Shown piece by piece: positions 14,280 to 59,030 of a stretch of DNA of 64,000 bases. This DNA is from Brachyhypopomus gauderio. Taxonomy: Eukaryota > Chordata > Actinopteri > Gymnotiformes > Hypopomidae. The stretch spans positions 2,034,203-2,098,202 of the forward strand of contig NC_135222.1 of the NCBI RefSeq assembly GCF_052324685.1. The letters run 5' to 3'. The number at the start of each line of letters is the position of its first letter. The stretch's first letter is position 1. The notes beneath the pieces were generated by a model. It was not told the origin of the DNA, searched no databases, and saw only the letters and a program-made list of their open reading frames with translations. A program made the translations under genes and the position numbers.

Positions 14280-15056
14280 CTATAAGAGCTGAATGCGGCG
14301 ATTTGCATGTTGCTCAGCAAAACGCTTCACAAATTTATCTAGGTCTAATGCTTTTGTGCGTTTTGATTCAATGCTGAGTACAGCCAAACTCGATAGTCTC
14401 TTTTCTGTCATAGTAGACCACAAATAAGTCTTTATGAGCCTAAGAGATGAAAAGCTTCGTTCACATGATGCACTGCTCACAGGTAAAACAACTGCTATTT
14501 TACACAACCTGAACAACTCATAAAAAACATCCTGGTATGGGTCCAAAAACTGAGTAAACTCCATTAGAGTTGTAGGACTCTCCTTGTCCCCCTTTTTTCT
14601 GTCTAGTACTCTCCTTGTCTGATGTAACTCATGTTTGAGATCCTCAATATTTGAATGATAAGCTTCAGCCAATAACAGAACAGCCTCCTCTCTCAAAAAA
14701 GTTGGACTTGATGGATTTAGTGCCTGTACACCCTGCATAATATTACAATTTGTGTTAGAAAATCTTCTTCCTATTTCTCCAATCATGTTATCCATAACTG
14801 GATAGTACACAGAGACACAAAAAGTGTGTTTACTATCTGGAGCTACATGCTGTCCTAAGGTGGAGTGAATGACAGTATCCTGAAGCACCTTTGTTGTCTG
14901 TCTTGGCCTCTTTAATTTTCGAGTTGTATCAATGTTACTTCGTTGACATAAATCCAGTGTTTCACTCCACATTTCCTCAAAAGAGGTTTGACTACGGTAC
15001 TGGACAAGTGTCTCTTTAAGCGCTTCAATAAGTTCAACAGCCTTAGCATAGTCCAC
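14280..15056 (-). pseudogene. hAT transposase, C-terminal half
   Basis: A frame of about 258 codons from DYAKAVELIEALKE to ANRRIQLL. It contains the hAT dimerisation signature (VLPVSSASCERSFSSLRLIK, then LSSLAVLSIE). The frame joins the preceding 15043-15783 frame at a junction near 15050, where the central catalytic part of the usual DUF4371/hAT protein is absent. The copy therefore looks internally deleted and non-autonomous even though both ends are intact. Confidence 0.85.
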
Positions 15057-15783
15057 CGTTGTAAAAATATCTCAAAACAAATGATATTTGCTCTTTTTTC
15101 TGAACATCTTTAGTTTCATCAACAATAACTGAAAACTGCTTGCTTGTTTTAACTTCCTGGATGATTTCTTCTTTGACCATTGTAGCCAAGCACTCAAGTA
15201 TTTCATTCTGTATTGTTTTACTGGTGTATTTTGCATTTTTAACTTGTTGTTCAAGTCTTTTTTTAATGATGGGGTTATGGTTACCCAGCAAGTCTAACAT
15301 AGACAGAAAAACACCCTTTTTTTCTGAGTTGGGAGACTCCCTGTGGCCCCGCTGTGCTATGTTTTCTGTGGCTGTTAGAACTAAAATTTCTGCTAATGCT
15401 TTAATGTAGTATTGGTTTTCAGCCACCTGCTTCTTTTTTTGTTCATCCATTAACCCAAACATTGAGGTATTTTTATCCATAATTTTCTTGTTCTCTGTCC
15501 ATGCAAACATTGCATTTACATGGCTTTCAGATCTGGCATGAGAACAGAAACCACTATCTTTCATTGTAGCCTTTTTCCAGTTACGATAACCCTCTAAAGA
15601 GGTGAAAACAGTCCTTGGAGCATCGGGGAGAGAAAAATGTCTACAAGCAAAACAGTAAGCTGCATCTTTAGATTGTGAGTATTCTACCCAGGGATGAGAT
15701 TTATACCAATCACTGCGGAAGCTTCTCCTGGCACCTCCCTGGACAATCTTGGGGAAACTCTCTCGCACTGGCTGAACTGGCAC
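15043..15783 (-). pseudogene. hAT transposase, TTF finger and DUF4371 part
   Basis: An open frame of about 246 codons. Residues 1-70 form a TTF-type zinc finger (SDWYKSHPWVEYSQS, AYCFACRHF, then SHARSESHVNA). DUF4371 follows and ends in FSVIVDETKDVQKKEQISF, whose DETxD is the first part of the RNase-H-like core. The frame then stops at the internal deletion. An intron or linker separates it from the N-terminal exon at about 16.1-16.7 kb. Confidence 0.85.
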
Positions 15784-16103: not shown

Positions 16104-16715
16104 TTATAGCGAAATGTCTGTTTTGTTCTTATTTATATGTAATTTAGTATAATATGCAGCAACACTTTCCATACCATGTGGACCAGCTCGACTGGAGACC
16201 ATTGGTGATTTCTCAGGCATTCTTCTTTCCCCTTCACAGTCTGAGCCCTGCATGTTATCTTGTCTCTCTCTTTCTCCCTCCTCATATTGGTGATGCTCTC
16301 CCTTCTCCATATCTTCACCGCTGTGGTGTTCTTCCTCCTGTCCCTGGTCGCCTTGGCCTTGTATTCTATCGTTGTCACATTTTTGTTGCCCCTTTCTCTC
16401 TCCTTCCACTTTTTCCTTCTCTTCTCTCTCTCCTTCCACCTTATCCTTCTCTTCTCTCTCTCCTTTCACCTTATCCTTCTCTTCTCTCTCTCCTTTCACC
16501 TTATCCTTCTCTTCTCTCACTCCTTCCACCTTATCCTTCTCTTCTCTCACTCCTTCCACCTTATCCTTCTCTTCTCTCACTCCTTCCACCTTATCCTTCT
16601 CTTCTCTCTCTCCTTCCACCTCATCTTCGTTTACCTTGCTCTGTTTTTCAGTTTCTGTTTCTGGCGCCTTTCTCTTTGGTGAGAAAAAACTATGAATATT
16701 ACCTTTCCTCTTCAT
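16104..16715 (-). pseudogene. N-terminal exon of the DUF4371 hAT, with charged repeats
   Basis: Begins MKRKGNIHSFFSPKRKAP, a common start for fish TTF/DUF4371 transposases. It then runs into about eight copies of a ten-residue highly charged unit (EREEKDKVEG). The downstream part is E/G/H-rich. Upstream in-frame codons extend to 16808, but the ATG at about 16713-16715 is the likely start. Confidence 0.65.
16390..16625. repeat. 30-bp coding minisatellite
   Basis: About eight tandem 30-bp units (CTTATCCTTCTCTTCTCTC core) inside the transposase N-terminal exon. The unit is a multiple of three, so the frame is kept. Small differences between units (T/C at the glutamate/lysine codons) give VEG and VKG variants. 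Confidence 0.9.
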
Positions 16716-25485: not shown

Positions 25486-26452
25486 CAGAGGTGAAAAGAG
25501 TACTGAAAAATTGTAATTGAGTAAAAGTATCATTACTTTGCCTAAAATCTATTCAGAGTAAAAGTAAAATTACCCATCTCAAAATTTACTCGAGTAAAAG
25601 TACAAAATTACTTCATTTAAAATGTAATTTGAGTAAAAGTTACTTAGTGAACCAAATTCAGCACAAGTTGTTTTAATCAATTTCAAAGTGTATTTACGTG
25701 CACATCCACACTTGCAAAAAGATCAGCTGGGCTCAGGAACATACTTCCTCACAGCACAAGGACAAGGAATTGTGCAAACAATTTTCAGTCCTATTGTCCA
25801 ATGGACAACACTATGATAAGGATAAAGAAATTTAAATTACAAATTATTCAAAAAACAAAATGCACACAAAATTAAGTGCCCACAAGATGCCACAAATCAA
25901 ACTAAAATGCAACAGATTTCCACTACTCACAATAAAATGCCCACAGGATCCCACATCAAAAATTAAAAAATGCTCATAGGATCCCACAATTTAAAAGTAA
26001 GTGCTCACAGGATCCAACTATTCAAAATACAGTGCCCACCAGATCCCACTATTCACAATAAAATGTCCACAGGATCCCACAGAATCTGATAGATAGAAGA
26101 TTTAAAAATAGAACAATCTCATCCTTTTGGAAAAAAAGTGCACCAGATTACGACCTGATTATGAGACAATGGAAAGGGTGCGTGCAAGGCAAGGCCATGC
26201 AATTGGCCTTCAGTTCTGGGACTCAGAAGTTTAAATTTCTGCCCGCATTTAATTTTTCACCATCAATATTTTTGTACTCAGTAATGTGAGGGCGTTCAAA
26301 TGTAGTGAAGTAAAACTACTTGGGGCAAAATGTACTCAAGTAAAAGTAAAAATTACATATTTCAAAAATTACTCAGAAAATTACAAATTACTCATAAAAA
26401 GTACTCAGTTACAGTAATGTGAGTAAATGTAATTAGTTACTTTCCACCTCTG
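25486..26452. mobile_element. Tol2-like non-autonomous hAT inside the LTR fossil
   Basis: TIRs CAGAGGTGAAAAGAGTACTG and (minus) CAGAGGTGGAAAGTAACTA with subterminal GAGTAAAAGTA repeats. A perfect 8-bp TSD GTCGAGAT lies at 25478-25485 and 26453-26460. The interior (25900-26080) repeats a CCCACAGGATCCCAC-type motif several times. Non-coding. Confidence 0.9.
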
Positions 26453-47599: not shown

Positions 47600-50240
47600 C
47601 TAACAGCTTTCATACCATGCCACTGCCTGACGTAAGGCTCTGTAGATGCCTGGGTTTTGAGAACACACAAGACCACCACCTCTCCGTGCTTGTCCACTCT
47701 CCCGGTTCAGGTCACCCACACATGCCCATTGGGCTTTGGATGCCAGGGACACACACCACTTGGAGTGGTCCTCATAGGAAGTAAATACGACGGGTCCTGG
47801 CAGGCCGATCCTTCTAATGTTCATGGCATGGTAGGGCAGTGAGCAGTTGGATGGGAGATGGTGGGGCTCTCGTTGCCAGGTTTCCACGAGAACATCTGTC
47901 ATAAGTGTCTGTGCTACCCAGCCAGCATAAATGTCTGTAATATCAATAGAAGACCACGGTTATGGGTGGACCAACATGGACCTTCACTGTGTGTGCATGT
48001 ATTATCCATGTGATCTGTGTGATCTGCATGGAACATGGTATTCTGCACGTTCTGAAAGCATTGCACCTATTACACAAGCAATATAAACAGGTAGTCAAGG
48101 ACAGAATTGTACTTTGGCATGCCTAAAAGTCAACAAATGGCTGTGTGTCTATCCAAAAAGCAAAGGAAGCATGTGCAGTGTGTTACCTTCAAGCAGAGAA
48201 GAGGTCCAGAATGCTCTTACCATCAATGTAGCTGTGAGATTTGGCAAAACTGAGGAAGGTCTCTCCCAGGACCGACTTCAGCTGCACCAACCTCCTCCTG
48301 GGGGCTACGGCTGGCGTTTTTCCAGCACAGAGATGTGCCATGTCTGTCATGTCTGTGCTATATGCCACCGGTACTGAGCAGTTGTACACACGTGGATTCA
48401 TGTAGGCCAGTTGCTGTGCTGATGAATACAAGGATGAGCATTTAGAGATTTTAACATCAGAGTAATTCAAAATCACCGGCACACAAATGAGTCATGTGAT
48501 TGGTAATATGAAATGAGTCATGACTCATGTGATTGGTAATGCTAAATATGCTTTATTTATAATTTTACTGTATACAGAATTACAGGATACGAGAAAAATT
48601 TCCTAATGTTAGATTTTTTTGTAATATGTTGACATAGTCTGCTCACAAATTTTTTGGAACTCTTTGTAGTTGTAAGTAGTGCAGTGAAACATCTGGCCAA
48701 AGACTTTTCCAGTGGAGGGGTAGCCAAAACCCGTCTCAGGAAATGGTGGAAAGTGAGGAACACTGTGTGTTAACCAGAATCCCTGAGACTGGTCAAAAAG
48801 CACCATACCTAGACAACATGTACACAGCACAGCACAATCACTCATTGCATATCATCCTTCAGTGTGAAAAGAACATTTTTTTTTTTTGGTGACCTGCTAA
48901 TTCCATTTGAATCATCTCTGCACACTGTACATGGCAGTGTTTGACCAACCTGGATACTTTGAACTGCAAACTTTGACATTGATGCTGACAAAACCAAGAC
49001 AGTAACAAAACAAAATGCCCAAATCAAAGGACAGCGGTGTGTTGCTAGGAGTCCATTTTCCAGGAAAATATGAACAGCCCATAAATGGAATACATAAACA
49101 TTATCTGATTCAGGAAAAATATGAAAGCATGAAATCAGTATTTAGTCAACAGCTCTTATCAGCTATGGTCTTTGCACTAGACCTCCCCTCTCTGAAACAT
49201 CAAATAAACGTGCTTTGAAGTTTAAAAGTACCTTTTGTGTGCCCGTATTAAAAGTACCTTTTGTGTGCCCGTATTAAAAGTACCTTTTGGGTGCCCGTAT
49301 TAAAAGTACCTTTTGGGTGCCCGTATTAAAAGTACCTTTTGGGTGCCCGTATTAAAAGTACCTTTTGTGTGCCCGTAGTTATTCAAGTACTTCAGCACCG
49401 GAGGAGCATCATTGTAGACCATGTATGCGGAGCTGTTCAACTGTTGAATAATCAGTATTGTTTATCACTGAATTTGAACTATATTTAAATAAGTAATGCT
49501 TCAGAAAAAAAACCTACTTATGTCATTTTTGCTATTCATGTTAAACCTAGATGTGGGAACAGTTCTTCTTAAGCACTTAATCACAGGAGAAGTGGCAAAA
49601 TAATCATGCAGTGTAAAGCAGCTTCTTGTTTTGACACCTATAATCATACCTCATATCTATGGTACACCTATAATCATACCTCATATCTATGGTACATATC
49701 TATGGTACACCTATAATCATACCTCATATCTATGGTACATATCTATGGTACACCTATAATCATACCTCATATCTATGGTACATATCTATGGTACACCTAT
49801 AATCATACCTCATATCTATGGTACATATCTATGGTACACCTATAATCATACCTCATATCTATGGTACAGCTGGATGAGGGTCCTGCCTACTGCACCTTTA
49901 CTGGTATTCACCACATGTGTACTGAACTGCCAGTCTGTCAGTGAAGGATCCAAATACATGTAGTCAACTCCACTTCCCACAGCACCCTTTATATATTTGG
50001 GCAACTTGTACACGACAAACCTTACATTGCAGAGAACAAAGACATTGTGAGCATTTCTAAATATCAAACATAATCAAACATTTACTAAAAACCTTCATCA
50101 GACAAGAAAACAAGTGGAAAGTCCATCTACCAGTCAACGGGCTTCCCTTCTTCATCCAGGCAGGACAGTTCTGTCTCACACAGGGAACCGAAGACGAATG
50201 CTTGGATGAAAATCGAACAGAAACTCCAGACTGAGAACAT
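47600..50240 (-). CDS. dnase2b: deoxyribonuclease II beta
   Basis: Secreted/lysosomal acid endonuclease; in mammals DNASE2B degrades nuclear DNA of lens fibre cells. Six exons: 50131-50240 (signal peptide MFSVWSFCSIFIQAFV, then CLDEEGKPVDW), 49852-50020 (FVVYKLPKYIKGAVGSG... to LIQLYHRYE), 49362-49440 (LNSSAYMVYNDAPPVLKYLN then NYGHTK), about 48636-48808 (GMVLFDQSQGFWLTHSVPHF), 48221-48415 (YMNPRVYNCSVPVAY...LSFAKSHSYID) and 47600-47934 (ETWQREPHHLPSNCSLPYHA, YEDHSKWCVS, GDLNRESGQ, ending WYESC). Both conserved histidine motifs of DNase II, GHTKG and DHSKW, are present. Its position beside uox supports dnase2b rather than dnase2. The introns after exons 2 and 3 begin with minisatellites built from the exon ends. 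Confidence 0.95.
49222..49377. repeat. 26-bp minisatellite made of the dnase2b exon 3 end plus splice donor
   Basis: Six tandem 26-bp units (unit starts TTAAAAGTACCTTTTG). On the minus strand each unit reads TACGGGCACACAAAAG then GTACTTTTAA: the last 16 nt of exon 3 (YGHTK codons) followed by its donor. The unit nearest the exon (49352-49377) is the real exon end; three of the others have ACC in place of ACA. A single extra unit (26 nt) would shift the frame; three units would not. Confidence 0.95.
49635..49866. repeat. 30/13-bp minisatellite made of the dnase2b exon 2 end plus splice donor
   Basis: Six 30-bp units (CACCTATAATCATACCTCAT core) with four extra 13-bp pieces (CATATCTATGGTA), making a 43-bp higher-order unit. 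On the minus strand each 30-bp unit reads TACCATAGATATGAG then GTATGATTATAGGTG: the last 15 nt of exon 2 (YHRYE codons) plus the donor. The copy next to the exon body (ending at 49866) is the genuine donor. Confidence 0.95.
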
Positions 50241-56960: not shown

Positions 56961-59030
56961 GACAGCTAGAAAACAAACATCCCATTACCAAGTGCCTAGA
57001 TTCAACTTAGACAGCATCCCTCTCTCTCAGGCACACGGGCTATGGCATTCGCTGTTCTCTTCACTGACCAACTTATTAGCAAGAGTAAGCTATCTAAGCT
57101 AATGTGCTCAACAAATCTTAAAACAATGCAACAACGTGCTAAAAGCAGCAACGTTCTCTATAAAACAGCATCTCTGCTGTATGAACTGGTCAGCGACGTG
57201 ATGATGTCCACTTCTCCCAGCTCATTTAACTACTGATACACTGTTCTGTAAGATCGGCGATGAGTATCTTAGCAACTACTACAAAAGCCAAAAACAACTT
57301 CTTACACAATGTATATTTAAAAACTAGACACTGCAAAACCTCTTGCAGAAAGGAACATTAACTGCAAATGATATGATATGCCTCTAGCATTGCGATTCAA
57401 TTCAATTATATACATATACACAATATTGACATCTTCTAGTTGCTTAGCAACATGTTTGAACAGATGTACAGTTGTTGGGGAAAAAATCTGGTAATGAAAA
57501 TACAAAGCTGTCATTTCTTCTACAAGTTATAGTTAAGCACAGACTAAACCACTAAACAATAGTGCATTAAAAATAATGGAATTCTTCATTGGCTTCATTA
57601 TTTCAGGGTTTAAACTGCATGTTAAATTGGGTCAGGTGAGTTAAGATCCATGAATGTGTGTGTGTGTATGTGTTAGTTAAAAGAAAGTGACCACGGAGAA
57701 GTACTACCTAGTTGTTAATGACGAATGCAGTGCCTCATTTGATGTCCTCAGCTCAAACCTCATGGTAGGGTCTCCCCATCAGTGACATTGTTTTCTAGGT
57801 TTCCTTAGTTGCCAGGGGTGCTCAAAAGTGTGTTTAACCTTAAAGTAAAAGAAACATAGAGCACTTGTTTTAGGCAAATTATCTGTACACTGTATGTAGC
57901 CCTGCACTTTTTTATAACACCTCCCCATTGTTGTCCGTGGTATTGGTAGAAATATTGGTATGTGCATAAAGGTGCCATTTTTTGGGCATCATAATAAGTG
58001 TACCACATGGGGGAAGCTAACCAGACAGACAGACTACAACATTAAATGTAGGCCTTTAGTAAATTTACACACCCTGAAATTGGCCAACAGAATGCATAAA
58101 CCAACGTTACACCTAAATCTGACCACCAAATTGACTGTAAACTGTACATTAACTTGCTCTTAAAGTGTTTACCTACACTGTGTACACTATTTTATTGGAA
58201 TTTAACACCATTTACTGGAAGTAAACATAAACTATGACTTGTGTCAGATGGTTCTCTTACATTCATTTCCACAAATGTACATGTCTGGTATCAGCAGACA
58301 GTCAGTACAGCCGAAACAGCAGCTAAACACGTTTGGATTGATGTTACATTTTATTCTAACGGTATAAAGGGGTGACACATTCCCACATATAAAGGGGTCA
58401 CATATTGCGACCACAGCCGTCAGCCGGATTTACAGTTAAAGAAATCGGTTGTCACAAATTTCGGTGTAATGCCGGAAATATGGAGGAACTCAAATACAGC
58501 TCCTGCAAACTGCACTATTTACTTTGCCAGCACAAGCATGTAAGTTAGCCTACGTCTTGGGATCGCGTACATAATCATAACTCAGTGTGGAGAAGTCTTC
58601 AAAAGTACCACAACTCTGCGACATGATGCTGAATGGTGTGAGTTTGGAGAACAAGGGTAACAAAACAACTTTTTATGGGTTTACACTACCTGGGGGAACA
58701 ATAATAAACTATGTGATGATAAACTATGTGATGATAAGCTATGTGATGATAATCTATGTGACAATAAGCTATGACAAACGCTGTGGACGACATTTGTAAA
58801 ATGTCATAAGTGTAAAGCAGCTAAACACACGAATACCGATGTTAGCGTGCTAGCTATATTAGCTTTATTAGCTACAGTAACAACGGGAGACAGATTAGCT
58901 AGCTAGCTAATTAAACTTGAATTATCTACATTGTCTAGCTACCTCTCCACGTAAAAATTCAATAATTTAGAAAATTTTAACAAATATTGCTCCAGAAAAC
59001 ACATACCGTTTCGAGTTAGAGTACCACGCA
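56961..59030. other. probable samd13 first intron
   Basis: No coding exon seen. Contains a 15-bp repeat at 58705-58773 and two ATAAAGGGGT(G)ACACAT copies near 58365-58395. Confidence 0.5.
58705..58773. repeat. 15-bp minisatellite
   Basis: About 4.5 copies of TAAACTATGTGATGA with small variants. Confidence 0.85.

Follow-up and report, generated by a model that had tools for sequence, protein, structure and literature searches.

The 64-kb stretch of DNA analysed here, hereafter the window, contains an intact DNase II gene on the minus strand (47600-50240), which runs from start codon to stop codon in six exons. When the exons (exon 1, 50240-50131; exon 2, 50020-49852; exon 3, 49440-49362; exon 4, 48808-48647; exon 5, 48418-48221; exon 6, 47934-47600; all on the minus strand) were joined at GT/AG borders, they gave 1053 nt and one continuous frame of 350 residues. 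The Pfam DNase_II profile (PF03265) matched this protein with 416.7 bits over profile positions 1-326 of 326, the Burkholderia DNase II structure 5i3e matched it with an E value of 2.5e-34, and GHTKG and DHSKW of the fish protein aligned with GHTKG and DHAKW of 5i3e. We take the conserved HTKG and DHSKW stretches to have an active-site role in the family. By its full-length profile match and the conserved GHTKG and DHSKW, the gene is assigned to the DNase II family. An earlier note on this DNA had proposed a DNase II gene with these exon ends, and the continuous protein and whole-profile match agree with it; the minus strand of all exons, which that note left unstated, is to be added to its description. 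The name dnase2b presumably applies, as judged from the human protein and the human gene order; the neighbours in the window (exons for uricase and GH18 by Pfam, and a vitellogenin-type exon match slightly under the cut-off) also suggest a gene of dnase2b type. In its own genome (796.5 Mb, 840 contigs), there are this locus and one other DNase II locus, on contig C7, which is 43-55% identical. Neither Rfam (gathering threshold) nor a tRNA scan gave any match in the window. Intron 4 holds two copies of ATTACCAATCACATGA(G/C)TCAT on the minus strand, which start at 48540 and 48507, 33 bp apart.

Introns 2 (49441-49851, minus strand, 411 nt) and 3 (48809-49361, minus strand, 553 nt) each open with a minisatellite. 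Array A (49222-49377, minus strand) consists of 6.0 copies of a 26-bp unit, TACGGGCACACAAAAGGTACTTTTAA, laid across the exon 3/intron 3 junction, and takes up the opening 140 nt of intron 3. The six units are identical save for one A/C position, which reads A, C, C, C, A, A from unit 1 to unit 6. Unit 1 is formed by the exon 3 end, TAC GGG CAC ACA AAA G followed by GTACTTTTAA, which closes the exon with ...YGHTK and the first base of a Gly codon, and the other five units are wholly intronic. Since the end of exon 3 encodes the conserved GHTKG, exon 3 is the source and the intron copies are derived. The donors of the array have their first intron bases at 49361 (the coding junction), 49335, 49309, 49283, 49257 and 49231 (minus strand), so that the six 26-bp copies of the exon end with its GTACTTTTAA donor, as proposed in the earlier note, are indeed there. 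The donor AAAGGUACUUUU of this array is nearly self-complementary, and adjacent donors could pair over 12 bp in RNA.

Array B (49634-49868, minus strand) lies across the exon 2/intron 2 junction, where exon 2, its source, ends in ...YHRYE, and takes up at least the opening 202 nt of intron 2. It holds ten copies of GTACCATAGATAT in 30/13-bp alternation, six of which run on into GAG followed by GTATGATTATAGGT, and there are no substitutions among its units. The first intron bases of its donors are at 49851 (the coding junction), 49808, 49765, 49722, 49679 and 49649 (minus strand), spaced by 43, 43, 43, 43 and 30 bp. The sixfold repetition of exon end and donor claimed earlier therefore stands, and for the 30/13-bp pattern given for it a better description is a 43-bp unit flanked on both sides by a 30-bp unit. 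In both arrays, the unit spans the exon end and the donor, and the first of six donors is the coding junction. When the two units were aligned locally, the score was 10 against a shuffled mean of 11.5 (P 0.82), which supports the view, also held in the earlier note, that two unrelated donors were separately amplified. Each array matched only its own locus in the 796.5-Mb genome, by a search that passes over simple repeats and very common words, and within that scope a dispersed repeat as the source of the units was ruled out. A paralogue with the same arrays was likewise set aside, as 9 kb scanned at the C7 locus held no array of more than 3.3 copies except a TA run. None of the three other donors and none of the five acceptors of the gene has a copy of its own junction in the intron beyond shuffled expectation. 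The near-absence of substitutions in the two arrays suggests recent growth or recent homogenisation.

All 36 joins of the six exon 2 donors with the six exon 3 donors were computed, and the pair of first donors is the one join that gives 350 residues; the remaining 35 lead to a premature stop. In the 30 pairs that use a later exon 2 donor, translation ends after residue 94, as intron 2 reads on as GAG GTA TGA; in the five that combine the first exon 2 donor with a later exon 3 donor, it ends after residue 139, 140 or 141. The proposal that three units (+78) would add 26 residues in frame is thus wrong, as TAA follows residue 139. An isoform set would call for a frame left open by downstream donors; since 35 of the 36 pairs are truncated, the arrays are no isoform device in this gene, and the downstream donors, if used at all, would be decoys. 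Donor strength was estimated as duplex energy with the 5' end of U1. The intron 2 and intron 3 donors gave -5.8 and -5.6 kcal/mol, compared with -14.0 kcal/mol for a perfect site, -5.0 and -4.4 kcal/mol for introns 1 and 4, and -8.0 kcal/mol for intron 5, and the donor copies inside one array are identical in U1 pairing. Going by the intact frame, the first donor probably wins often enough. RNA structure masking the downstream donors was considered and dropped, since neither fold is convincing (array B, z -0.26, no convincing pairing; array A, z -1.54, not significantly stable).

How unusual such arrays are was judged against 20 random 10-kb stretches from six large contigs, with 4,259 N among the sequences scanned. 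Under one rule (period 9-150, at least 2.8 copies, score of at least 80, lower-scoring overlapping rows removed), these stretches held 34 tandem arrays, one of which is really an AC run; 14 of the 20 had at least one array, and one had nine. The window, with six arrays in 64 kb under the same rule, is not array-rich, and two of the six lie at donors of the dnase2b-type gene. Another, a 30-bp array at 16395-16625 (minus strand), was rejected as a junction case, being in frame within an open reading frame as a ten-residue repeat; an open reading frame of hAT-type transposase (14283-15071, PF05699) lies near the one that holds it. By eye, no exon was recognised alongside the arrays at 25507 and 25867, and a further array lies at 58704. 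With uniform placement, about 0.5% of donors are expected within the terminal unit of an array, and two donors of this kind would occur in about 8-30 of 25,000 genes, as consecutive donors in about 3-6, an order-of-magnitude estimate which assumes 25,000 genes with 5 or 9 donors each, ignores selection and treats placement as uniform, which it truly is not. If introns 2 and 3 are each taken to hold one array, the probability that both founder units span the donor is about 0.7%. As tandem repeats, the arrays are plainly beyond chance; as a coincidence with donors, they are barely so. Because tandem arrays are abundant in this genome and other exon ends share the architecture, chance placement is enough, and the case for a special explanation of the double event is weakened.

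Across the genome, we counted sets of three AGGTRAGT motifs at 16-46-bp steps, with the pattern read backwards as the control. The triple motif had 5,923 placements (3,754 + 2,169) versus 6,879 (2,020 + 4,859) for the control, and the single motif 62,438 (32,291 + 30,147) versus 87,175 (40,391 + 46,784). Per single motif, triples amount to 9.5% for the donor and 7.9% for the control, slightly higher for the donor, and donor motifs are not clearly over-amplified genome-wide. The first 100 triple-motif placements listed formed 20 arrays by eye, at 1.3-23 Mb of contig C1, and the upstream side was viewed for 10 of the 20, three of which had been picked beforehand by eye as exon-like. All three begin at an apparent exon end, which makes at least two to three of the 20 arrays among the matches listed. 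The other seven viewed gave no clear exon-end case; one is array from end to end and one is ambiguous. The same architecture is thus found at two, probably three, other exon ends on C1, as read from their sequence. For example, a GTGAGT donor array follows an LDL-receptor class A exon (PF00057, 48.4 bits; C1:3151500-3152200, minus strand) with nine donors at exactly 45-bp steps, and the frame is open through the stretch read, so that each further donor would add 15 residues; this exon is a better candidate than dnase2b for isoforms set by repeat length. At C1:2518640-2519040 (minus strand), a 38-bp array with at least four donors, in which the acceptor-like CCCATACAG is also repeated, stands at an exon end with a weak resemblance to troponin T (E 0.13), and its downstream donors lead to frame shifts or stops. 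The least sure case is a 37-nt exon-like stretch at C1:2562440-2562900 (minus strand), where each unit of a 44-bp array with at least four donors closes with a near-identical exon end followed by a GTAAGTT donor.

Some further observations were made during this survey. At C1:11312130-11312445, a 34-bp array ends about 20 bp from an apparent minus-strand exon acceptor, with the junction itself uncopied. On the plus strand of C1:2524729-2526629, AGGTGAGT is repeated every 56 bp or so across nearly 2 kb, another donor-motif array, with steps beyond the 16-46-bp spacing that was counted. An uninterrupted myosin head match (962.7 bits) lies on the minus strand at C9:22191169-22193205 in an open frame of 1942 residues, and this myosin heavy chain is intron-less, possibly a retrocopy. 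At C1:21.12-21.44 Mb, several myosin exon matches occur in pairs of identical score about 151.5-151.7 kb apart, which may be either a recent segmental duplication or an assembly duplication.

We consider it probable, at roughly three chances in four, that the two arrays are young, passively arisen minisatellites of the exon/intron boundary, in which the first donor is spliced and the downstream donors are decoys. In each case, a short tandem duplication (about 30 and 26 bp) would by chance have included an exon/intron junction and founded the array; slippage or unequal exchange would then have lengthened the array within the intron, where added length is presumably tolerated. The protein would come from the first donor of each array, with the five donors behind it as decoys. 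Use of a decoy would give no full enzyme, because each downstream donor leads to a premature stop, and such transcripts are candidates for nonsense-mediated decay. The arrays would then be by-products of a genome rich in minisatellites, neutral to mildly harmful in effect, and the near-identity of their units points to their youth. Against plain chance stands the probability of about 0.7% for both founders, together with the finding that two of the six arrays in the window lie at donors of one gene and none at its three other donors or five acceptors. The weak U1 pairing of both real donors would also fit a helpful role of the copies. Such a role, in which extra U1 sites help a weak donor to define its exon or divert transcripts, and copy number tunes enzyme output, seems unlikely to us. 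It would account for two weak donors that are each followed by five identical sites and for only one of six donors being productive, twice, and for a boundary repeat in human CBS, higher copy number is reported to accompany lower activity (PMC5188458). However, the donors of introns 1 and 4 are equally weak and have no array, the near-identical units carry no sign of long conservation, and tandem arrays are common in this genome regardless.

A directed process that makes donor minisatellites, for example breakage at a co-transcriptional structure or at near-palindromic donors, is improbable. Two unrelated donors of one gene are affected, further donor arrays occur elsewhere in the genome and the array A donor is nearly self-complementary, as such a process would have it, but the triple donor-motif arrays are not clearly above the backward control, pairing is unconvincing in array B (z -0.26) and reaches only z -1.54 in array A, and seven of the ten viewed donor-motif arrays are not clearly at exon ends. 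We give very little credence to an assembly error as the origin of the copies or of their number. The array B units are indeed without substitution and the arrays were read in one assembly, yet tandem arrays of diverse periods are numerous in the genome, the internal variant of array A is common to three adjacent units, and both arrays lie within long contigs (C12, 24.8 Mb). Finally, it is hardly to be expected that the true exon ends lie elsewhere, so that the arrays would not be at donors: the exon model was built from sequence alone, but its join matches DNase II without a break along the entire profile, and GHTKG runs across the exon 3/4 border.

Returning to the passive origin that we prefer, the dnase2b case alone would be a curiosity with a human precedent; it gains interest from the doubling in one gene, the single productive donor of six in both arrays and the hint of a common class. 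It is a speculative idea, and we hold it to be rather doubtful, that splice-donor minisatellites form a large class in this genome, perhaps at hundreds of exon ends, and that copy number at dnase2b and the LDL-receptor class A exon sets how many transcripts are functional relative to decoy or lengthened ones. If true, it would amount to fast, reversible and length-coded tuning of gene output, and the genome would hold a natural library of competition experiments between 5' splice sites. With their identical donors set at a fixed spacing, such arrays are the natural counterpart of the duplicated-donor constructs that serve to probe site choice by the spliceosome, and the read-out at dnase2b would be clean because the full protein requires the first donor in both arrays. 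Should the class prove as frequent as our small sample hints, the tolerance of splicing for decoy donors, and the relation of repeat length at splice sites to expression, could be tested at scale.

Several known systems can be compared with these arrays. The origin of introns through tandem duplication of splice motifs, reportedly described by Zhuo et al. in 2007, is alike in that tandem duplication copies splice sites, and differs in that dnase2b gains no new intron and existing donors are copied. The same origin is the subject of Lehmann et al. 2010 (PMC2891723). In human genes within segmental duplications, 27 intron modifications by tandem repeats at exon-intron boundaries have been described (PMC2812944); the repeats likewise straddle the boundary, whereas the human cases are recent paralogues in which the repeats can be retained in the exon or spliced out, and at dnase2b the array is intronic, one copy of the gene was found and the conserved exon is the source. 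A literature search directed at fish, with most subscription journals outside its scope, found no title on splice-donor minisatellites, and passages of PMC4329672 and PMC3488318 hold nothing on them beyond a reference. Human CBS is a further such system. Its 844ins68 allele, a short duplication over the intron 7/exon 8 junction of which one copy is strongly favoured with a normal message (PMC2630376), shows that a splice junction present twice can be used with a strong preference for one copy. Its 31-bp VNTR at the exon 13/intron 13 boundary, c.1444_1467+7(16_21), has 24 exonic and 7 intronic bases per unit (PMC2630376; the repeat is also covered in PMC1395315), and higher copy numbers of it are those reported with lower enzyme activity. 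As in arrays A and B, its unit joins an exon end to an intron start in tandem and its copies carry the donor; in contrast, the human repeat has 17-21 copies in most people and is variable, and the arrays described here have 6 copies each in one assembled genome, with two arrays in one gene. The CBS 31-bp repeat can therefore be seen as a direct precedent for the array anatomy: the boundary minisatellite is a kind already known, and the genomic context, an array-rich genome with sister exon ends, is new here.
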